DNA from: Bugula neritina
Taxonomy: Eukaryota; Bryozoa; Gymnolaemata; Cheilostomatida; Bugulidae
NCBI GenBank assembly: GCA_964035545.1
Contig: OZ037765.1
Span: forward strand, 27,478,504-27,542,503
Direction: 5' to 3'
Length of the DNA: 64,000 nt
Below are positions 4,708-63,500 of this stretch, piece by piece (the stretch's first letter is position 1; every line of letters begins with the position of its first letter). The notes below the pieces were generated by a model. It ran no database searches and had not been told where the DNA came from. It was given only the letters and a program-made list of their open reading frames with translations. The translations under genes and the position numbers were made by a program.

Positions 4708-6840
4708 ATGAAGGTGAAGGAAATAGAAAGAACAGCTAATGTAGCCTGGTCACCTAACTCTCAGTATCCAGTATACCTAGCTTGTGGCACTGCTGCCCAA
4801 CAGCTTGATGCCACCTTTAGCACTAAATCTGCTTTAGAGGTGTTTCGGTTCAATCCAGAGAACCCAGGCTTAGCATGTGCACCTGTAGCGTCTGTTGAGA
4901 CTGATCATAGATTTAGCAAGGTTAGTGCGCAAGGGAATCGCATTTTATTCTTTGTTTTATTTTTACCATCAACTAAATTGTGCTGTTTATGAGTTGCAAT
5001 GAAGCCGTTTATTTTATAGGTAGTATGGGGCAGTCTGGGAATGGATGATGGCCATGCATCTGGTGTTATTGCTGGAGGAACTGATAATGGTTTAGTTTGT
5101 GTTTGGGATGCCTCTAAGCTCGTTATGAAAGAATCCGACTCACAGCTGCTGAATTTAAACAAACATGTTGGCAGTGTTGCAGCTCTGGATTTTAACAAGT
5201 TTCAGGTACTATTTCAGTGGTAATACTGCAAATAAAATGTTATTGAAACTACCATGTAAACACTTTTCCCACAACACTGAATCTGAATATTTCTGAACTT
5301 GTCCTGCAGGACAACCTGCTGGCATCTGGCGGTGGAGACTCTGAAATACTCTTATGGGATCTGAACAACCCGACCACTCCTATGACACCCGGCGCTAAGT
5401 CTCAGCCATCAGATGATGTCACCTGTCTGTCATGGAACTGCCAGGTGCAGCACATTCTAGCAAGTGCCCTCAATAGCCGCTGCGTCGTCTGGGACCTCAG
5501 GAAGAATGAGCCAATCATTAAAATCAGTGACAGCATGTCGAGGGTGAGTAGTGATGCCTGTATACATGGTGTGAGTGATTGTAGCAAGTACTGCAGGTGG
5601 TTGCCTTGTAAGCTGCTAGTCATAACTGAAGCTGCTAGTCATAACTGAAGCTGCTCTTGCTATTGTTAGATCAAGTCAAAGCTGGTCACGTGGCACCCTG
5701 AAGTTGCTACTCAACTGTTGCTCTCCTCTGAAGATGATCATTCTCCAGTCATACAGCTCTGGGACCTCAGATTTGCTGCATCTCCTTTGAAAGTAAGTCA
5801 CATCAGCTAAATCTTTAAGTTTACTGAATGGGCGTTTTCTGTTTCTGCACAAATTCAACTTTCTATACTACTCTTAAATCTCTATACTACTCTCTGTTTT
5901 CACTGATCTCTATACTACCATTCTACATATCGTGGGTAACTGTACAGGCAGAGTTTATTGTACTCCTGCAGGTTCTGGAGAGACACACCAGGGGAATCCT
6001 GTCAATGGCGTGGAGTAGGGCTGACCCAGATCTGCTTATTTCCTGTGGTAAAGATAATAAGCTGCTGTGCTGGAACCCAAATGCCGACGTAGTAGGTGGC
6101 CAGGTGAGGTGCTGGACATTAGCTCATCATACAAGTTACTATAATTACTAGAAGAGTTACTATGTTTAATGAGCATTGCTTACAATCTGTATCGTAGTAG
6201 CTGTGGAAAAATTGCAAGTTCTACATCGTTGAGTTTCGTTTCCAACAGATAACTTATGAGCTGCCTGTTGGTAATCAGTGGTGCTTTGATGTGCAATGGT
6301 GTCCGAGAAACCCTCATTGCGTTTCCGCATGTTCATTCGATGGGCGTGTGGCTGTGTACTCTATAATGGGCGGGGAGATGATGACTCAGCCCCTGGATAC
6401 TACTAGCAAGGTATTGCGTTGTACCACTCAGTGTTTACATGTTCCATACTCCAATATATTCACTCAACTGTTGTTGCTGTTACACTATGTATTGAATTAA
6501 TATCTTTTCTGTTCTAGAGATGGGTATGGCAACTGTTTTTGTGGTAATATATATAGCCAGGAGTTTGTTGTGTTCTTATTAACCATCATACTTACTTCTT
6601 GTGTTTCTGTTATACTAAAAGTTACCCTTCTTCTGTCTGTAAACTTTGTGAGGCCCTTTTTAAATATTATCCCATACAGTCTGCTGCACCTCTCTTTCCT
6701 ATTGGCAGATAGCCGATTCGTTTAGTGGGTTTGAAAGTGTTGCACCAACTCACACTGTACCGAAGGTGGAGAAGCACATCGTACCACAGATTAGTAAAGC
6801 ACCAAAGTGGTTGAAACGTCCTTGTGGAGCTTCTTTTGCA
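4708..6840 (+). other. SEC31: SEC31 WD40 propeller exons 1-7
   Basis: The first seven coding exons encode the seven-bladed N-terminal propeller that, in known Sec31, forms the cage vertex. The domain ends at a [14 protein letters not shown] segment (exon 7), followed by FGGKLVTF in exon 8, as in animal Sec31. All these exons are phase 0 at both ends. Confidence 0.9.
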
Positions 6841-9800
6841 GTAAGCAGACATCTATTTTTAAAATATTTATATTTTAATTTCTTCACTTTATTTTTTACC
6901 TGCATGCATGCGTGTGTATGTAATATTAAGTTACAGTGCTCTCCATAATTCACGGTTCCATTTCTTACGAAATTCCATAGGTCTTGTACCCTCAATTTGT
7001 GGTTTATGTATGTGTGTATAGGGACAAAATGGCCGGATTTAACGGATCTGTGAGTTAAATCTGGTATTGCACTATAATACAAATTGAGGTTTCAGGACCT
7101 GCAGCTATAGTGAGAGGGAGGAGAGGAGGAAGCACTTTATTGTATTATATAACATTTTTGTTTTATTCCTTTTTAATCATAGTTTGGAGGGAAGCTGGTG
7201 ACTTTCTCTTACACCAAGTCTGCAACTCCTGGTTCCAATACGCAGAATAAAGTCAACATACATAAAGTAGTAACTGAAGGGGACGTTGTTTCGCATTCGT
7301 CTCAACTTGAACACGCCCTTCAAAACAGACAGTTTGCAGAGTTCTGCTCCCTTAAAATCAGTAACAGTGAGGGGCATCTTGAGGAGACCCTGTGGAAGTT
7401 CCTAAAGGTGAGGAATCAACAGGCTGTAAGGGTGGTAGTCTGCAGTGTAGCATACAGTGCAGTGTAACTTATAGTCTGAGTTGTATGTTTATATTCACAT
7501 TAATACCTGAACTCTGGCAATCTTACAGGTCAACTTTGAGCATGAGCCAAGGACCAAATACCTCAATATTCTTGGATTTGATGCTCAGGAAATATCACAA
7601 AAAGTAAGTTTTGTATTGTTTTACCATGAAAATAATTTTCAAACTATTTAACAATGTGAGATTGTATAATACGTGCTGCTCTGTGTGTAGTTTAGTTTAA
7701 ATCTTGCTGCTCCAATAGAATTCACGAAGGTTATTGTTGTGATACACAATTCTGTATGCACTAAAATAAAGACAATAAAAGACCCTTCATGTACGAATAG
7801 TTTTGTTAGCATTATTGTATCAGCTGAGAGCCATTTTTGTTCATAGATTGTGTGGTAAACAACATGTGTATGAATTTTAATGCTGGCTACATGAAACTTG
7901 AAGTCTTTGTGATATGAAATGTGCAGGTGGGCTCTACGGCATCGTCTGCCACTAATGTGTCCGACAGCGAACTCACGTCCGACCTCTCGGACATGGCTGT
8001 TGGGGATCAGCAAACTGCGGCTGATGCTTTTGACAAGATTTCCCAGCCTAAGCCTGCAGCTAAAGAACTTCGGTTCAACACGACTGACAATGGTAAATTC
8101 AAATGCAATCAGTTGCTCTTAGGGTATGCGTTGTGTTCTCATCACATAGAAAACATCTGTTGGATATTTATATTAGACTTGAGCTATTAAATGGGAGATG
8201 ATTTGATCAAGTTTTATCCCAAATATCTCTATTAGTTTTCTATATTTAGCCATATTATATAACCAGAGTGTTGTCATGTCAGCGCTGACCTTCTATTGCA
8301 GGACCAGAGAGTCTGCTGACACAGGCTCTGCTCACAGGTCAGCTGGAGGAGGCGGTTGACCTCTGTCTGTGTGAAGGACGTATGGCTGACGCTATCATCC
8401 TGGCCAATGCTGCCGGCCCTGACCTCATGGCAAGGACAGTGAAGCGCTATTTTAAACAGTGCTCCAGTTCAACTGCTAGTGTAAGTTAATACTGATAGTG
8501 TAAGTTAATACTGCTAGTGTAAGTTAATACTGCTAGTGTAAGTTAATACTGCTAGTGTAAGTTAATACTGCTAGTGTAAGTTAATACTGCTAGTGTAAGT
8601 TAATATTACTAGTGTAAGTTAATACTGATAGTGTAAGTTAATACTGATAGTGTAAGTTAATACTGCTAGTGTAAGTTAATACTGCTAGTGTAAGTTAATA
8701 CTGCTAGTGTAAGTTAATACTGCTAGTGTAAGTTAATACTGCTAGTGTAAGTTAATATTACTAGTGTAAGTTAATACTGATAGTGTAAGTTAATACTGAT
8801 AGTGTAAGTTAATACTGCTAGTGTAAGTTAATACTGCTAGTGTAAGTTAATACTGCTAGTGTAAGTTAATACTGCTAGTGTAAGTTAATACTGCTAGTGT
8901 AAGTTAATATTACTAGTGTAAGTTAATACTGATAGTGTAAGTTAATACTGATAGTGTAAGTTAATACTGCTAGTGTAAGTTAATACTGCTAGTGTAGGTT
9001 AATACTGATAGTGTAAGTTAATACTGATAGTGTAAGTTAATACTGCTAGTGTAAGTTAATACTGCTAGTGTAAGTTAATACTGCTAGTGTAAGTTAATAT
9101 TACTAGTGTAAGTTAATACTGATAGTGTAAGTTAATACTGCTAGTGTAAGTTAATACTGCTAGTGTAAGTTAATACTGCTAGTGTAAGTTAATACTGATA
9201 GTGTAAGTTAATACTGATAGTGTAAGTTAATACTGATAGTGTAAGTTAATACTGCTAGTGTAAGTTAATACTGCTAGTGTAAGTTAATATTACTAGTGTA
9301 AGTTAATACTGATAGTGTAAGTTAATACTGCTAGTGTAAGTTAATACTGCTAGTGTAAGTTAATACTGATAGTGTAAGTTAATACTGATAGTGTAAGTTA
9401 ATACTGCTAGTGTAAGTCAATACTGCTAGTGTAAGTTAATACTGATAGTGTAAGTTAATACTGCTAGTGTAAGTTAATACTGCTAGTGTAAGTTAATACT
9501 GATAGTGTAGGTTAATACTGCTAGTGTAAGTTAATACTGCTAGTGTAAGTTAATACTGCTAGTGTAAGTTAATACTGCTAGTGTAAGTTAATACTGCTAG
9601 TGTAAGTTAATACTGCTAGTGTAAGTTAATACTGCTGGTGTAAGTTAATGCTAATAGTGTAAGTTAATACTGATAGTGTAAGTTAATACTACTAGTGTAA
9701 GTTAATACTACTAGTGTAAGTTAATACTACTAGTGTAAGTTACTACTGGTAGTGTAAGTTAATACTGGTAGTGTAAGTTAATACTGATAGTGTAAGTTAA

Positions 9801-12800
9801 TACTACTAGTGTAAGTTAATACTAATAGTGTAAGTTAATACTGCTAGTGTAAGTTAATACTGATAGTGTAAGTTAATACTGCTAGTGTAAGTTAATACTG
9901 ATAGTGTAAGTTAATACTGATAGTGTAAGTTAATACTGCTAGTGTAAGTTAATACTGCTAGTGTAAGTTAATACTGCTAGTGTAAGTTAATACTGATAGT
10001 GTAGGTTAATACTGATAGTGTAAGTTAATACTGATAGTGTAAGTTAATACTGCTGGTGTAACAAACTAATTGTCATGTATCACCTAAACTAACTTTTGTA
10101 ATAAAGTATATGCATTGTGTTAATATTGAAGCAGTCATCACAAACTTACACATAATTCATGTTAGAATGAAATAAATTTCAGGTCTGCACCTCCTCTCTA
10201 GAGTGTAAACAGCTTGTCTTTGCAGAATAGGGAGGAAGTCCAATAGTATATACTTGTACAATAAATAATTCATGCACCAAATTTACCAAATAATATTACT
10301 AGAGGACATATGAACTTATTCCTGTGACTCAATATCTAACTTGTAGTTGATATCAGCAGTGGTGCAGAAAGACTACGAATCTGTGGTTGAGAATGCTGCC
10401 CTGGAGAACTGGAAGGAGACTTTAGCTGTAATTCTCACGTATGGAACTGCTACGGAGTTTGTGCAACTTTGTGGTGAGTTGACGTGTTTATTCTACGTTT
10501 GAGCTGAAATGTTTTATTCTACAGTAAGAGAGTAATAACTTTATGATGGTCAGCTGATCATTCTACTCAATATAGAGTTGTTCTACCATGAAATTGGTTA
10601 TAGTTGGAAATATATGTGTAAATAAAGTCAATCTTAAGAAGTTTTATGATTAACGGAGTTGCTAGTTGTCATAAAGTACCACTAAGTTGTTAGTAAGCTT
10701 ATTAGTTTTATAAAAAAGTGCCTGTTTTAACTAATCTCTCTTTTTGGTTTTTGCTGTTGGACTTTTACTGAATTTTTTAGAAGACAGCATATCTCATACA
10801 ATGCATGTGTGGCTAGTTTAGAATGTGGAGTTTTTAACTGTTAATGTATTTGATGTTCCAGTGTTACAGAAAAGAGCTGTTTTATCATTAGCTAAGTGTA
10901 TTATAATAAGGGCTGTATTTAAAAAACTACCAAGTGCATGTAGTTGCGTTTCCCTTACTAGTGCCTCTTATTTGTATTTTCATATGCTGCTCGTATTATG
11001 TAGATAAACTGGGAGCACGTCTTGAAGATTCACCAAACCAGCACCTCTCCTCCAATGCCGTGCTCTGTTACATCTGTTCTGGTAACATTGACAAGTTTGT
11101 AGATTGCTGGATGAAACAGCCCTGTGCCACTTCAAACTCCTCATTTGCTCTGCAGGTATTTGTTTAGTTATTAAAACGTCTTTCCTATAGAGAAATACTT
11201 TCACTGATTTTGAAGCAATAATTTATTAAAATTATTTACTCATTGTTTATTTATTTGTATATGCAGGGAAGCCGAGTAAATGTTTTAATATATAAAAATT
11301 CTAGAAGGAACACCTGAGCACTTTTTTTTTTAGTTATATAAATGATTGATGAATAGTGTGAAATATAAAAATACCAGCTTTTGAAATGATAATTCTCAAT
11401 CAATTAATGAGTTTATAGCCCATTAAAAGAGTTCAGTTTGCCAAGGTTTCTCTCCCAACCACTCACCAAAAGTTAATGCACTTATATATGTATATGTGTG
11501 TGTGTGTGTGTGTGTGCGCGTGTGTGTGTGTAAGCTGATTCTTGCACACTGCACAATGGTGTATCTGGGATGTGAATTAATGTTTTAGGAGCTGATAGAG
11601 AAAGTGATGATGTTGCGTAAAGCAGTTGAACAATTACACGGACAGGAGTATTCTGTGTCAGCTGGCAGCTCATTGGCCAACAAACTAGGTCAATATGCTG
11701 AACTCTTGGCTGCTGAAGGTAGCCTTTCTACTGCTCTTGGATACCTGACAGGTGTAGCCCAGGTATTAGCACCAACAATTAGTAGTTGTGCTCTCTTGTC
11801 TTGGCTTGCCACTTCTTAATAAATCTAGTTGGTTGAATGTAATATGTAATAGTATATAATATTATATTTCACACCTATACAGTCATAGTCCTGACTATAA
11901 TATATAATATAATATACACAATAATATATACTACATAATATTATACTGTAATACATATTAGTATATTATATAGTATATGATCTATAATAATATGTAATCT
12001 ATAATATGTAATATATACAATAACTTTGCAGAGTCAGAAGCTGAGTGTACTCAAGTACAGACTGCAGACAGCACTGGGTCAGCATGTCTCCTCCACCCCG
12101 TGGCCCACCGCACCGGTGCGTGCTGCCCGTACTACCCAGGCTGGTCAAAACCAGGCTTATACACGGTCCACTAGTAACCCTTATGCTCAGCCAAATCAAG
12201 TAAAGAACTACCCTACATCCGCTCCTGTTCAGGGGAACACCTCTTACTCTAACCAACCTGGTCATAGGTATGTATACTGGTTGTTATGTAGCTGATTCTA
12301 GGTCAGCATACTGGTTGTTATGTAACTGATTCTAGGTCAGCATACTGGTTACTATATTATACTCACTGTTATATCATTGTAGTGGTTACAGTGCATACAA
12401 TGGCACACCTTCTGTTACCACGACGACCCCGTCTTATGGTGCTTACTCTTCTCAACCCAACTACCACCCTAATGCTTACTCATCAACTGCCGGCTATATG
12501 CAGCCAGCCTCCACTTACCAGCCTTCCCCACAGGCCCCCTACTCCACCCAGTCATACTACACCTCTGCATCCACCCCCTACTCTGCTGCTGCCAGCTATT
12601 CTAGTGCCCCCGGAGGCTACATGACACCAGATACGAGCTACATGGCACCAGCTGCTGGATACGGACTCCCTGCCCAACCCGTGGGACATGTAGCTGCTCG
12701 AGGTCAGTTAGTACACCGAAATGTGAAAATTATCTACTTCTTGTCTACCAACTGTATTCCGTACTACTGCCATGACTTATTCGTATGTGGGTTATTATAG

Positions 12801-15612
12801 GTTTACTCGGTAAGAAATATGCTGCCACGTCATCTTCTACAGTCACGACCGCATCACCTGCCTTGTCGGCAGCACCCTCACTGTATAACCCTAACGCTGC
12901 TACTGCCAGGTTTGTCAGCTTCCCATCTCACCAATAGTTTTTGCTGTTTGACCATATCATTGTCTACTTATCTTGCTATCAGTCCGTGCCTAGGTTCACT
13001 CCACTCGTCAGTGGATAACACTCAATACTTCGAAGGAAATTGGTGATGCAAGGGTTTAAAACCCATTATTGGCATGTCATTTTCTTTTTGTTCAATGTGC
13101 ATCCAGTAGTATTGCTAGTTGTTGATGGGTTGTGTTTGTAGTATGGTGTCCAATACAACCACTGTGGCAAGTTCTTACAACTCCGGCTCTATCTATAATC
13201 CTAACAGCTCATATAATACTGCAGCTCCATCAGGTAAAGCATCAACTAAATCTCAACTCACTTAGTGGCTAATATAGTTTAGTATACTCTGAATCATTTA
13301 TACTCATCTGTAAATTTTCTTCCTGTCTAATTGTTTTTGAAATTATGTAAGCATTGTTTTTATGTGGTTTATTTGGCTAACCACTAGTTTTTATTTATAC
13401 CCGTTCATTGAGCTTTTGTTTACCAAAATTTAAAAATGTGTTTTTATGAATTTATGAATTGTGTTTAGCGTTAGAATTTTTTAATTGTTGCTTCAACAGC
13501 ATTACATACACCCACTAACCAAAAATCAAAGGTTTTTTGGTTTAACCTTTTTAGTAGTAGTTATGGTCTACACAGGTTTGAGCAAATCATCTTTTTTTTT
13601 TAAAATAGGAATAAATATTGGTTTGCAAAGGGTAATAGTATTTAAAACTGCCTATAAAGAAGACTTTTGATAAGAAACTACAAACTTACAATTGCAGTAA
13701 CTATTAGACCTTGGGATTGTCATCATGATCAAACAATAGTCATTTGATTTTCGATACCGAAACTGCGTGTCTTGCGTCTGTTTGAAGAAATATAAATAGG
13801 ATTTCTGTTGAGTGCATAATTTGTGTGCCCTCGGTAGATTAAGTTATGATGCAATGCAAGCTTCCTGTGTTTTCGTACTCAAATGTTAAGTTAGCTAATC
13901 AGAACTGAACAAGTTCTTGAACTGTTGGACTGCCCCAGGTGATAAATGCTGTGGAGTTAAAACTCTACTGAGACTGAGTTGTTTTCCTCTCTTGGGTTGT
14001 TGAAGGCAGAATTATCCAATAATACTCATTTGAGATATCATAGGTTTTGATGTAATGGAAGCCTTTTTATTTAAATAATAACATTCTGCATCTAGATATT
14101 ATTTGATCAAATCACAAGGAGAATAGAAGTAGCTTCACTCTTGTCTTTAGTATTGAGAATTTGATTTTCCAATAATATGAATAACATTGAAAATGTGCAA
14201 TATTTTTGGCATTGCTAGTTAAATTTGTAAAATTTATCACCATTTTAGTTTTCAGCTTTCCTAAGACTTGCCAATTTGATTACACAAAGTTGTGTACTTA
14301 GTTTGAGTGTTACTTGTATTTTCACAGCTCATTCATACCACCAGTCAGCTTATCAGCCACCAGCCACGCCAGCCATCCCAGTACCCACTGTAGACGCTGT
14401 CAGAACTGCTCCGTCTGGCTGGAATGACCCTCCACCTGTTCATAGCAAGGTAAATATGGAAGATACAAAAATAGCTTTTGCTGATTAGTGTTTACACTTT
14501 TTGATATGGTGTGTATTCTTCTGTACATGTATTTGCCAGGAGCCTGAATCACCACCAGCTGCTGCTAAGACTGCCCCTATAACCATGCCAGTGTATAATC
14601 CTGCTGCACACCAGCCTGCCATGGCCGATCCTACATATGGCAACTATAACCAGCAATACACTGGTGCTGGTATGCAACAGTACAACTATCATGGACAGGC
14701 ACCTTCAACACAGCAGTATGCCCCTCCAGCCAGTCAACCCTCTCCTAAACAACAGGTAGTTACTTCCCCTTGATGAATTATTTGCTTTTTTTCACCGGGC
14801 TCAAAATATTCACTCAATTGTCGTTATTAAAAGTTTTGGTTTTTGAAAATTACACTTCATCCAATTTGCTTCCAGTTGTTTGCATCTTCAAACTCATTTT
14901 GAAGTTTTTAAAATTGGTATGATTGGTGGTGGGTGGAGCTGATAACTTCAACTTGCTTTTATTTTCAAGTAATGTGTAGTATTCTTTGATATGCCTTTTA
15001 AAATTTTAGGTTGCTGCTCCTGAAGTAGTGAAGCCTCCTATACCAGAAAAGCACATGGCTCTTAAGGAAACACTGGATGCCTTAGCGAATAAATGCCTGC
15101 ATGCGTCAACTAATCCAGTAAGTGTACTCGAAACTGATGGTTTTGTTTAATACAAATGGGCAGGTAGTTAATGATTATTCTTTGATTTGTAGCAACAGAA
15201 ACGAAAATTAGAAGATGTGCTAAAAAAGTTGGAGTATTTATATGATAAATTAAGACAGCAAGCGGTAAGCATACACAAACCCCTTAATTTTTGCATTATA
15301 TTAGTTCTCAGCATATTGTGGTATAGGAATGTTGATACAACTGGCTAGGAACACCGATAAGGGGAGAAAATGACTTTTTTGTCACTGCAAAAAAGTCCAG
15401 TTTTTATGCAGTGTTTCCTTTTTCAGTTGAACGAGACGATTCTTCAAGGGCTGAATCAAATTGTCGCAGCCATAAAGCAATATGACTACAATACAGGCCT
15501 GGCTGTACACACACATATGATCTCTCAAGGAAATTTCAGTGAAATTAGCGCATTTATGCCAGGTCTTAAAATGCTTATGCAAACTGCAACTCAGTTACAA
15601 GTGTTTATTTAG
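4708..15612 (+). CDS. SEC31: SEC31, outer COPII coat protein (complete, 23 coding exons, about 1246 aa)
   Basis: Sec31 pairs with Sec13 to form the outer cage of COPII vesicles and stimulates Sar1 GTPase at ER exit sites. Coding exons: 4708-4920, 5020-5205, 5310-5543, 5670-5792, 5972-6103, 6249-6410, 6709-6840, 7183-7407, 7529-7603, 7927-8092, 8302-8480, 10347-10473, 11004-11155, 11589-11762, 12032-12267, 12383-12702, 12801-12909, 13142-13233, 14328-14449, 14540-14755, 15011-15118, 15193-15264, 15427-15612. All junctions are GT-AG and in phase. Residues 1-350 form the WD40 propeller (start [56 protein letters not shown]). Residues 500-760 are the alpha-solenoid ([29 protein letters not shown]). 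Residues 760-1125 are a Pro/Tyr/Ser/Gln-rich linker, including SGWNDPP near residue 1044. Residues 1130-1246 are the conserved helical C-terminus ([28 protein letters not shown]). Length matches human SEC31A (about 1220 aa). The ATG at 4708 begins the conserved N-terminus; an upstream in-frame ATG at 4588 lies before a likely acceptor. Confidence 0.97.
5612..5655 (+). repeat. 19-bp tandem duplication in SEC31 intron 3
   Basis: Two exact copies of GCTGCTAGTCATAACTGAA (5612-5630 and 5631-5649) are followed by a partial third. The array ends 14 bp before the exon 4 acceptor. It shares the CTGCTAGT core and the 19-bp length with the intron 11 array. Confidence 0.9.
8472..10062 (+). repeat. 19-bp minisatellite, about 83 copies, starting on the exon 11 splice donor of SEC31
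   Basis: The unit is GTGTAAGTTAATACTGCTA, repeated head to tail at constant 19-bp spacing. The first copy spans the exon 11 end: coding ACT GCT AGT is followed by the real donor GTAAGT at 8481. The internal copies repeat ACTGCTAGT plus GTAAGTTAAT, so almost all carry GTAAGT; about three have GTAGGT (near 8996, 9508 and 10001). Variants at the GCT position (GAT, ATTACT, GGT) are arranged in blocks, with a 152-bp (8-unit) period between 8605 and 8909. The array ends in TGGTGTAACAAAC. It fills most of intron 11 (8481-10346). Confidence 0.97.
11490..11535 (+). repeat. (TG)n microsatellite in SEC31 intron 13
   Basis: TATATG followed by a TG run interrupted by GCGCG, about 45 bp. The intron ends at the exon 14 acceptor (TTTTAG, before 11589). 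Confidence 0.9.
11835..12025 (+). repeat. AT-rich low-complexity tract in SEC31 intron 14
   Basis: Irregular TATAATATTATA and TAATATGTAAT runs fill the intron between 11763 and the acceptor before 12032. No coding potential is seen. Confidence 0.75.
12268..12355 (+). repeat. 34-bp tandem repeat starting on the splice donor of SEC31 intron 15
   Basis: Unit 1 (12268-12301) begins with the donor GTATGT itself. Unit 2 (12302-12335) begins GTCAGC, and a partial third starts at 12336. The units share a TATACTGGTTGTTATGTA-type core, with CATACT replacing TATACT in later units, and the first two end GATTCTAG. The boundary coincides with the exon 15 end (CATAG before GTATGT). Confidence 0.9.
14328..14449 (+). 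other. SEC31: SEC31 exon 19 with the WN active fragment (GWNDPP)
   Basis: The Pro-rich linker contains a SGWNDPP motif. In yeast Sec31 the Trp-Asn pair of the corresponding fragment inserts next to the Sar1/Sec23 catalytic site and promotes GTP hydrolysis. Preservation of WND supports a functional Sec23/Sar1-stimulating fragment. The residue role is family knowledge; the motif is seen directly. Confidence 0.85.
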
Positions 15613-60500: not shown

Positions 60501-63500
60501 AAATTCACTGGGTTCTCGCTTCGTTTTATATGTTTGGATGTGACTAGTCTAGAAAGTTCCATGCGAATTCGAGGGAGTTCGCTCGAATCGCAGGGTAATA
60601 ACAAAAGGTTCGCAGGAATTCGCTTAAATCGAGCGAACTCCGAGGGCGAATCCCAGTCATCTCTATTATGTAAGCAGTCCTATGCGTAGCTAGGAACAAT
60701 AGCTAATCCAGTCAGTACTATAATAACACGTAGCTAGGAACAAGGACTGGGGCTATGCAGCTGATACATTTAAGAAAAACACACATTCCATGGGAATGAA
60801 AGAAATACTAGTAAGAAATATACGCAATTCTACCACAATACACACACCACTCAACTCCATACACTACAGCACAGCATTGCATATATTAGTAAATAATTAT
60901 AGTTGTCATACATACCAAATTGGAAGTTGTTGTAACTTGGACAGACATGGTAACACCCACTCATTATTCCTTCGACAAACAAAGCTAATCCCATAGCGTA
61001 AAAGATACCCGCATGCTGGGGAATTCCTAGAAGTTCCCGTTCTTCTTCGGGTTTGTTCATCGAGTCCCGAAACCTAACAATATTACAGCTGGTGAACTCT
61101 TGTTGAGTAATGTAGCTAAATTTCAAACATAATAATTCAAAACTTACATTCCCATGCAGCATGCTAGCAAGTTGAGTGAGTTGAAGCGTGAAATACCTGA
61201 AATAAGTAATAATAATAAAGAGAATCCCAAGCAGAATGTAACCAATATTACTAATCACACTATTGAAGCTGTGTAGACCTCCCAGATGTCTTGAGCAGAG
61301 GAAGTTGTAGTAGCAAGTGTCTTGGTTGCCAGATAAATTTAAATACTAAAAAATAGAGTGATTCAACAAAAATGAGTATGGTGAGGTACAGTGGTGCTAT
61401 ATACAAAACGCAATAAACAAAAATATGCAGAACGACACCAAAAAATCATTAAAGAACAAATACAAAGTGTTGGGAGTAATTATAATACAACATTATGACC
61501 ATGTATACCACTATACAGATATAAACACTTTTAACATAAAAACGTTACTAGAGTTTACTTCATATCAATAAACCAAAAAAAAAAGAGAATACTACTTGAG
61601 AGGCCTAGAAATCACACAGGTCATGTTTGTGTGGAAGAAAACCTTCCCTGCCCAGGATAACATTCTCTTTTGGAAGTTATTAGTTTGAGTATATATTATA
61701 AAATTGGCCAGTTGATTCATATAGTTTGTGGGGTGTGTTTGAAAGATAAATAATGTATTAAAAACTGATAAAACATATTGTTTAAATAAAAATGTGTGCA
61801 TATTGTAGCTTAAAAGCCAGAAGTTTCCAAATAAAATGTAACCGAAGTGGAGTATTACATAAATTATACCTTCTGATATGCCAACACCAACTGGATAACT
61901 GGGAGAGCGTAGAAAATTGAAATACTAATGAGGTTTCTAAAACAAAATGGTTACACAGACATTACAGTCTAGATTACAATAGGTCACTTTGGTGAGACAG
62001 AGTGGGGACAACTCCCACATCAGCTTGTTATTTGAAAGGTCGATATAAAATGAATATAATGGTTAAATTGATTAAATAAAATTGCTAAACAGCTTATGCA
62101 CTCATTTTACAATGACCAACTAGACTGAAGTCCTCCACAACTAAAGGCGGAAACAGTGAACTTTACTATAAACTACAAACTCTTACCTTGCTCTTATAGT
62201 ATAAACCAGCAAGAATAAGATTGTAAGTTCAATCATTGTAAAGGCTAAATCCCAAATTTTAAATTTGAAAATTATGCTTATATTTATAAGTACAACATGA
62301 ACAAACATGAACAATAAAACACTAACCTCACGTATAACATATATTTCTTCCGAAGATGGGTGGATGGTTTTCTAGCCATGTCAGCCACCATGAGGTTTTT
62401 CTGAAAAAGTATGTATTAATTGCTCTATAGTATGTATTAGTTGTTCTGTAGTGTGTATTAGTTGTTCTGTAGTATGTATTAGTTGTTCTGTAGTGTGTAT
62501 TAATTGTTCTGTAGTATGTATTAGTTGTTCTATAGTATGTATTAGTTGTTCTATAGTATGTATTAGTTGTTCTGTAGTATGTACTATTTGCTCTGTAGTA
62601 TAAATATCAATTAATGTAGTCTTCACTTTTCAAAACTGTAGTCTAGTAGCCATGTTAAAATATAAGAAAACGCAATTAATCCTGGCTGTGAGATATAAAT
62701 TTTATACCATGAAAAGATATTTGTGAGAGAGAACAAACCTTCAGCCTATAAACATCTTTTATCTCATCCTGGTCAGCCAGTGTGTCAGCATCTAACAGCA
62801 GACTGTCATCATAATTAATATCATTAATAGATGTGTTACCAGCCCTAGCAGGTGCTTCTGTGTTCCCATCACTGGCAGGCGCTTCTGTGTTCCCATCACT
62901 AGCAGGTGCTCCTGTGCTACCAGCACTAGCAGATGCTTCTGTGTTCCCACCACTGATAGTAGGCACTGTGCAGCAACAAACAACGCATGTTATTCTATAA
63001 ATAGGCAGTCAACAAATTTCAATCCTTTTATTTTTGAAATTGTATCAAATTATGCTGAAAGTTTGGAAAGCCCCCTTTAGAAAGGATATTATTTGCTCAA
63101 TCCTTATCCTAATGGCCGACTTATGATTTTAAGACCTGCTTTATTACTAATGAACACAGTAGACCTTCATATATTGCACTGGGCTTTACGTAGGCAAGGA
63201 CGTATAACAAGTGTGGAAAGAGGAGGAGAAAGTGGGATGGTATAATGCTGGTATAACTGAACATTACAATGACTTTATATATACACTTTCTATAGCCTGT
63301 ATAGCTGGCATATCGTGTCTATGTAAATAAGTCTAGCAAAAAGCTATGGGTAATGCTAGCAATTGAAAGGAATATATTTTATAGGCCGGCACATTGAATG
63401 TTAATGAATGAATTATATATATTCATTGACTAAGAAAAACTCAACAAAATACCCAACTTTCATGTGACATATTTGAAACTGATAGAATAGAATATTAATT

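Follow-up and report, generated by a model that had tools for sequence, protein, structure and literature searches.

Tandem copies of a 5' splice junction in intron 11 of SEC31 in Bugula neritina

Which donor does an intron use when its 5' splice site stands in dozens of near-identical tandem copies, and do the copies serve the gene? The question is raised by SEC31 of the bryozoan Bugula neritina, which lies in the 64,000-nucleotide stretch of DNA analyzed here (the window).

The SEC31 gene and its amplified junction

The gene (4708..15612, + strand) was delimited by its spliced open frame and by homology; its 23 coding exons join into a single open frame of 1246 codons plus stop. The predicted protein shares 63% identity with a Watersipora subatra Sec31A-like protein over 100% of the query, contains a TPR_Sec16 domain and, in a 230-aa piece, matches SEC31 structures over residues 5-143 (best E 1e-6). 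Exon 11 (8302..8480, +), placed by the spliced frame and protein alignment, ends in phase 0 with the bases ACTGCTAGT, while intron 11 (8481..10346, +; 1866 bp) and exon 12 (10347..10473, +; acceptor cttgtag/TTGATATCAG) follow from the spliced frame. The alignment with W. subatra (YFKQCSGATSS/LIASVV) has no gap at the exon 11/12 join, and we therefore place the true donor at 8481 and treat ACTGCTAGT as coding sequence, in agreement with the gene, intron and donor named by an earlier, sequence-only reading of this DNA. The GTAAGT at 8481..8486 (+), required by this gapless alignment and complementary to U1, is thus probably the site used to join exon 11. The genome contains a U1 gene with a standard 5' end, complementary to a GTAAGT donor. 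The intron 11 donor is an ordinary and rather weak one: its U1 pairing energy is -6.4 kcal/mol, which ranks it 17th in strength among the 22 donors of SEC31, whose energies run from -4.5 to -11.7.

The junction between exon 11 and intron 11 is present in 84 tandem units of 19 bp (8472..10067, +; 83 intact, the last decayed), the first of which is the junction that homology demands. The array, which corresponds to 27486975-27488570 on chromosome 1 and was identified by a tandem-repeat call, unit-by-unit reading and motif count, makes up about 85% of the intron. The repeat call (8472-10061, period 19, 83.7 copies) reports 95% matches and 0% indels, and the unit-by-unit reading finds 13 unit types in one fixed register. 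Each unit consists of the final 9 exonic and initial 10 intronic bases at the boundary, the composition and period that the sequence-only reading had proposed; the array it described is real, with its figures of about 83 copies at 8472..10062 replaced by those given here. The commonest form, ACTGCTAGT/GTAAGTTAAT, accounts for 41 of the 84 units, which are identical from -9 to +10 and include the first. Eighty units carry GTAAGT (79 of them downstream of the first donor) and three GTAGGT, which bears out the earlier count of about 80 near-identical decoys; the 84th, ACTGCTGGTGTAACAAACT (10049..10067, +; unit-by-unit reading), is diverged, lacks GTAAGT and has GTAACA instead. The 14-mer GTAAGTTAATACTG, allowing up to 2 mismatches, matches 83 times in the window, always within the array, compared with 1.4 matches expected.

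Near the 5' end, the unit order string contains three adjacent and identical stretches of 152 bp, each made up of 8 units (8510..8965, +), which we read as a recent block expansion close to the first donor. Only four unit types occur in the first 42 units, as against 12 in the last 42; this difference, the exact block repeat and the decayed last unit all fit repeat turnover. Over the array as a whole no single block period is prominent, the best lag being reached in 4460 of 5000 shuffles. Tandem arrays are classic trouble spots of assembly, and this one could have been over- or under-expanded. Such an artefact is extremely improbable: the 13 unit types form an ordered pattern free of indels, and the 1.6 kb array is far shorter than the usual HiFi read. 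The tzBugNeri2.1 assembly, for which an alternate haplotype assembly, GCA_964035465.1, is public, is reported as built from HiFi data of about 132-fold coverage with a QV of 53.7 (PMC11480708).

A coding repeat was considered and rejected, as all six reading frames are closed through the array (longest open run, 18 codons). Recursive splicing through a zero-length exon was likewise discarded, the unit having AG-T-GTAAGT and not AG/GT. RNA folding of the first units was no better than that of shuffled sequences (z -0.83).

Donor choice and variation of the GTAAGT core

We consider it probable that the array is a neutral, recently expanding minisatellite of the "mirage" type, spanning the junction and without a dedicated function, in which the first donor wins. 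The process would have begun with a small tandem duplication across the junction, possibly aided by a short imperfect repeat, present as AGTTCA-ACT in the exon and as AGTTAATACT in the intron. Slippage and unequal exchange could then have enlarged the array, most recently by the 8-unit blocks near its 5' end. Growth of this kind would be tolerated, being confined to the intron, with exon 11 still joined from the 5'-most donor. Selection of that donor would have to come from position or context, because its sequence is no better than that of the decoys. Exon definition, earliest transcription and upstream exonic signals may each favor it; against a first-donor rule, splicing in vitro often prefers the intron-proximal site when two donors are strong and equal.

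When donors 2, 3, 4, 5 and 84 were modeled, each led to ...STAS-V-S-stop at codon 612, as expected from the immediate in-frame stop that the sequence-only reading had noticed past the true donor; every later donor would truncate SEC31 because the TAA sits within the first added unit. Under the neutral reading, rare use of later donors would end in this stop and in mRNA decay, at small cost. Alternatively, the same outcome could be the function, with some transcripts using later donors, stopping at codon 612 and decaying, so that the length of the array tunes the dose of SEC31. The frame-breaking effect of all modeled later donors and the supply of 79 later GTAAGT copies are in keeping with such a buffer, as is the scarcity of changes in the core (3 of 498 bases, compared with 50 of 1079 at the other positions), a scarcity also seen in the arrays of CCDC40 and a carboxylesterase gene described below.

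This invariance, which the sequence-only reading had offered as a hint of constraint, does not reach significance in the SEC31 array, whether counted by variable positions (1 of 6 in the core, 7 of 13 elsewhere; Fisher p 0.15) or by distinct substitutions (1 of 9 within the core; p 0.17). When the unit's 19 circular windows of 6 bases are ranked by variability, GTAAGT falls at the 32nd percentile. Counting variants by runs gives p 0.001, a value inflated by block duplication. Across 15 GTAAGT arrays taken together, variation is lower in the core than in the remainder of the unit (Wilcoxon p 0.003), which hints at constraint. The nine arrays assigned to donors give p 0.13 by themselves, GTAAGT takes second place and not the first when 40 words are compared for variability, and core variation is low also in the six arrays not assigned to donors. 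Given core invariance that is not significant in SEC31 and recurs in arrays not assigned to donors, we judge the dose-tuning buffer to be quite unlikely.

The array might instead bind many U1 snRNPs, thereby shielding the intron from premature polyadenylation or slowing its splicing. The 80 GTAAGT sites complementary to U1 in 1.6 kb and the standard 5' end of the genome's U1 gene would permit this. However, the intron is merely 1866 bp long, each site pairs with U1 less strongly than the median SEC31 donor, and in a 200-kb sample GTAAGT arrays are antisense to predicted genes (8) as often as sense (6), the antisense ones being unable to bind U1 in that transcript. We regard a U1-holding role as very improbable. 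Neither the U1 titration nor the nonsense-mediated-decay switch that had been suggested for this array finds support, given a core that is not significantly conserved and a genome rich in minisatellites, among them GTAAGT arrays in both orientations to predicted genes; of the three readings offered at the outset, neutrality tolerated by virtue of a winning first donor is the best supported.

Related arrays in the Bugula neritina genome

Two other genes have arrays at or near a donor. In CCDC40, an array of about 118 copies spans a donor junction, across which the protein runs without a gap; its 20-bp unit contains the last 8 bases of the exon. A second array in this gene, of about 12 copies, ends at an acceptor. 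The array of the carboxylesterase gene (locus L019) has about 26 GTAAGT units, starts 17 bases downstream of the exon's donor without covering the junction, its unit containing no exon bases; nevertheless, this unit resembles that of SEC31 over GTAAGTTA(A/G)TACT. Among ten further GTAAGT arrays of chromosome 1, the start of one coincides with a likely exon end according to the codon score, and that of a second on inspection by eye, while four share a common 31-bp unit with no exon-like flank.

The carboxylesterase array suggests another origin, in which a common genomic minisatellite, with units rich in AGTGTA, GTAAGT or TACTGTA, arose beside the exon end or invaded it. We found 146 qualifying arrays in 264 kb, and many words are as enriched in them as GTAAGT. 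The SEC31 unit, however, holds the last 9 bases of its own exon in register, and protein length is conserved over the junction, which together indicate that what was repeated is the junction; the CCDC40 unit, too, includes exon bases. An origin outside the junction is thus unlikely.

A genome-wide class of donor arrays was tried and rejected, as one control word is commoner and one rarer than GTAAGT and there is no sense bias. Control words were chosen for similar single-copy frequency (170, 163 and 168 per 205526). Counted as triples genome-wide, with several matches per array, GTAAGT has 22524 matches (639 for the reversed word), the self-overlapping AGTGTA 42339 (reversal 5629) and GTGATA 6705 (reversal 10985). 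GTAAGT occurs within the units of 16 of the 146 arrays, where a Markov model of units predicts 5.1 and the single-copy frequency 2.9, and about 18 other words are equally or more enriched. Relative to predicted genes, the counts of sense and antisense GTAAGT arrays are 6 and 8 (81 arrays, 200-kb sample), or 6 and 6 at the strictest threshold.

Exon edges were located with our own codon-usage score, trained mostly on SEC31, and the exon-edge test is therefore weak. Array starts score above 5 in 6 of 16 cases for GTAAGT and 72 of 268 for the others. In the 200-kb block, arrays touch predicted coding segments on the acceptor side 28 times (10.9 under a uniform null; 0 of 5000 simulations) and on the donor side 14 times (9.5 expected, p 0.05). 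Neither figure holds in an independent 83 kb (the window, L019 and L020; 21 arrays), with 6 acceptor contacts for 4.9 expected and 5 donor contacts for 3.1; we do not claim an excess of arrays at exon edges. A kinase search, made for exon sampling, matched mostly small contigs with in-frame TAA or TAG. We hold it rather unlikely that a recurrent process in this species amplifies 5' and 3' splice junctions to between ten and more than 100 copies. Under such a process, introns of ordinary genes would start with many identical donors, correct splicing would depend purely on position, with the 5'-most donor winning, and the array would burden U1 and mRNA decay with a mutable load that varies with its length.

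Junction minisatellites in other systems

Minisatellites that span exon/intron boundaries, a kind that the sequence-only reading did not name, are known but little studied, and SEC31 is a large example. For the choice of a 5' splice site it amounts to a natural experiment, since a single intron of this COPII gene contains 80 GTAAGT donors; these share the same core, so core strength cannot explain which is chosen, and the choice among dozens of identical sites becomes directly testable. With the SEC31 and CCDC40 arrays, two genes of a bryozoan join the amphioxus cases and the one in a human gene, and such arrays offer a concrete way for introns to grow with the protein unchanged.

The closest parallels are the "mirages" of amphioxus, minisatellite-like tandem repeats across exon/intron boundaries in Adh3, troponin C, the globins BflGb6 and BflGb9, and PGBD5, for which regular splicing is reported to be undisturbed and length to vary (PMC3087553, PMC3902484). 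In SEC31, as in these, the unit crosses the junction and carries splice signals (80 GTAAGT and 3 GTAGGT in 84 units), and the interior is homogenized while the edge copy has diverged; on these features the SEC31 array can be classed as a mirage. According to the same accounts, several unrelated genes and both 5' and 3' boundaries are affected in amphioxus, as in Bugula neritina, and the 19 bp unit falls inside the Adh3 range of 10-72 bp. The arrays differ in scale, with 3 and 6 units described for BflGb6 as against 84 in SEC31 and about 118 in CCDC40. They also belong to different phyla, and undisturbed splicing and length instability are amphioxus observations.

A minisatellite in human IFI6 (6-16, G1P3) is cited as supplying multiple splice donors (PMC4526556, citing Turri et al. 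1995). As described there, IFI6 resembles SEC31 in having donor-bearing units where a coding exon ends, but two of its downstream units are used as donors and yield variant proteins, whereas the 19 bp unit of SEC31 brings an in-frame TAA and the modeled donors lead to truncation only. No in-frame variant of the IFI6 type arises from SEC31 donors 2, 3, 4, 5 or 84. Intron gain by tandem duplication is a theme to which a paper on potato RdRp is reportedly linked. In the Rogers model, as discussed in PMC3087553, introns are gained through tandem duplication of AG/GT segments. SEC31 shares with this model the copying of splice signals by tandem duplication; the model, however, creates an intron, whereas in SEC31 an existing intron has been lengthened at its 5' end.

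A junction-spanning array in SEC31

SEC31 (window 4708-15612) comprises 23 coding exons, which join into a single open frame of 1246 codons. The protein spliced from the window shares 63% identity with SEC31 of Watersipora subatra, also a bryozoan; the named matches that follow, from a brachiopod (Lingula), a nemertean and molluscs, reach 43-47%. The phase-0 end of exon 11 lies at 8480, and exon 12 starts at 10347. TRF reports one array, at 8472-10061, in which 83.7 copies of a 19-bp unit show 95% matches without indels, and reading it in a fixed register gives 84 units of 13 types, which bears out the approximately 83 tandem copies proposed in the sequence-only reading. That reading had also equated the unit with the exon/intron junction, including 9 nt of coding sequence. 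The Watersipora protein aligns without gaps over the exon 11/12 junction of the joined SEC31 protein; on this basis, we place the true exon end at the first copy and regard the nine bases ACTGCTAGT as coding sequence, in agreement with the earlier proposal. The exonic AGTTCA-ACT directly upstream is similar to the intronic AGTTAATACT, and we suggest only that this likeness may have been the seed of the first duplication.

The commonest unit is ACTGCTAGTGTAAGTTAAT (41 of 84); 24 units have A at position 5, and five begin ATTACTAGT. There are 80 copies of GTAAGT and three of GTAGGT, and GTAAGT is gone from the final (84th) unit. Copies 3-26 consist of a block of eight units (152 bp) present three times exactly, and 19 of the 24 pairs at distance eight within copies 1-32 are identical. 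Over the whole array no lag is prominent, the best being reached by 4460 of 5000 shuffles. The first 42 units include 4 types and the final 42 include 12. Two further short tandem repeats lie in this gene: one in intron 15 (window 12274-12350), starting 6 bases past the end of exon 15, and one in intron 3 (window 5610-5655), ending 14 bases before exon 4.

Donor choice and variation in the GTAAGT core

The in-frame stop predicted past the true donor is recovered in the models: use of donor 2, 3, 4, 5 or 84 would in each case add V-S-stop after codon 609, placing the stop at codon 612. We found a U1 gene in the genome, with the 5' end ATACTTACCTG. Predicted U1 pairing of the intron 11 donor is -6.4 kcal/mol, the 17th strongest among the 22 SEC31 donors (-4.5 to -11.7). 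The first unit is identical from -9 to +10 to 40 others; local donor sequence therefore cannot single out the first donor.

Within the SEC31 unit, one of six core positions varies versus seven of the other 13 (Fisher p 0.15), and one of nine distinct substitutions falls within the core (p 0.17); a run-based count of variants yields p 0.001, a figure in which block duplications enter many times over. Across 15 GTAAGT arrays together, the core varies less than the rest (Wilcoxon p 0.003). When only the nine arrays assigned to donors are considered (three with homology support; six assigned by eye or from open frames), p is 0.13; the core is less variable in all six arrays outside this set, and no difference was seen between the two groups (p 0.46). 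With a different aligner, GTAAGT ranks second among 40 words, with a mean conservation percentile of 0.34 (0.32 for SEC31). We consider it likely that the SEC31 array is a neutral junction minisatellite with continuing turnover.

Other arrays at exon ends and their genomic background

The genome analyzed, in which the window occupies C1:27478504-27542503 (C1 being chromosome 1), has 215,847,546 bases in 295 contigs; the B. neritina HiFi assembly tzBugNeri2.1 is described as 216.00 Mb in 320 scaffolds, with chromosomes 1 and 5 of 35.64 and 17.72 Mb (PMC11480708). BLAST searches of the genome with four units gave two additional places. On chromosome 1, a CCDC40 exon (...LNQLVQIE) ends CAGATAGA/GTAAGTT, and its end bases form part of a 20-bp unit of which approximately 118 copies follow. 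The same gene has an acceptor array (positions 7195-7441 of the CCDC40 locus, L020) of approximately 12 copies of a 20-bp unit with ATGCAG, which runs up to the next exon's acceptor; exon sequence contributes no more than one or two bases to this unit. Alignment of the joined protein with CCDC40 structures (best E 3e-24) has no gap at either the donor-array junction or the later acceptor-array junction. On chromosome 5, a carboxylesterase exon (...LNIFQPN) ends at the donor GTAAGCTAG. From 17 bases past this donor, a 17-bp unit containing GTAAGT is present approximately 26 times in tandem; this array therefore lies after the donor and does not span the junction. The frame is kept into the next exon, and the joined piece has a single uninterrupted match to Pfam COesterase (residues 3-164, E 5.6e-62); its best structure alignment shows gaps close to the junction. 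There are thus two donor arrays (SEC31 and CCDC40) that span homology-supported junctions, one acceptor array that ends at a junction of this kind, and a further array, bearing donors, that lies just after one.

Other arrays were noted in passing. At window 62408-62601, a 21-bp unit containing GTATGT (AGTATGTATTAGTTGTTCTGT) is present nine times in tandem. At C1:449280-449700 (L043), a putative 36-base exon, seen by eye between ttttttaccag and gtgagt, precedes a tandem array of ..GAACAG/GTAAGTTATTACTCT. Four arrays at C1:810127, 829389, 837753 and 852657 share a nearly palindromic 31-bp unit with GTAAGT and ACTTAC; no exon-like flank was seen beside them, and they are perhaps part of a mobile element.

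Three GTAAGT spaced 3-30 bases apart match 22524 times genome-wide (reversal, 639). Among control words chosen for a single-copy frequency like that of GTAAGT, the self-overlapping AGTGTA gives 42339 matches (reversal, 5629) and GTGATA 6705 (reversal, 10985). Counting units of 8-60 bp in at least 2.5 copies, a contiguous 200-kb block near one end of chromosome 1 (C1:160001-360000) contains 171 arrays and the 64-kb window seven. Array units are generally biased to certain words (TACTGTA/AGTGTA/GTATAC), and GTAAGT-bearing arrays in block and window number 16 of 146, versus 5.1 expected. Relative to predicted genes in the block, six GTAAGT arrays are sense and eight antisense, with no sense excess, and their starts are not clearly more exon-like (codon score >5 in 6 of 16, versus 72 of 268 for other arrays). 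Given the control words, the unit bias and the lack of a clear strand or start signal, we make no claim for a genome-wide donor class. In the block, arrays contact predicted coding segments on their acceptor side in 28 cases versus 10.9 expected, an excess that did not recur in a separate, independent 83 kb. Minisatellites are abundant in this genome, and some have captured true junctions.

Most of 130 protein-kinase matches fall on small contigs (e.g., C188, C173, C64, C236 and C58) and contain numerous in-frame TAA/TAG and few or no TGA; those on large contigs are mostly stop-free. The small contigs look like those of a ciliate cobiont remaining in the assembly that decodes TAA/TAG as an amino acid, presumably glutamine.

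Relation to amphioxus mirages

Tandem repeats spanning exon-intron boundaries have been described in amphioxus as "mirages" of unstable length; in Adh3 the units are 10-72 bp (PMC3087553). PGBD5 was added as a mirage gene in a report that also cites troponin C (PMC3902484). No bryozoan case appears among the literature matches listed, a coverage that leaves out most subscription journals, and "minisatellite", "tandem repeat" and "intron" each have 0 occurrences in the Flustra foliacea genome paper. What makes the SEC31 array of interest is its scale, its occurrence in a new phylum, and the clean test that it affords of first-donor choice among many identical donors. For the amphioxus mirages, RT-PCR suggests that regular splicing is undisturbed (PMC3087553).
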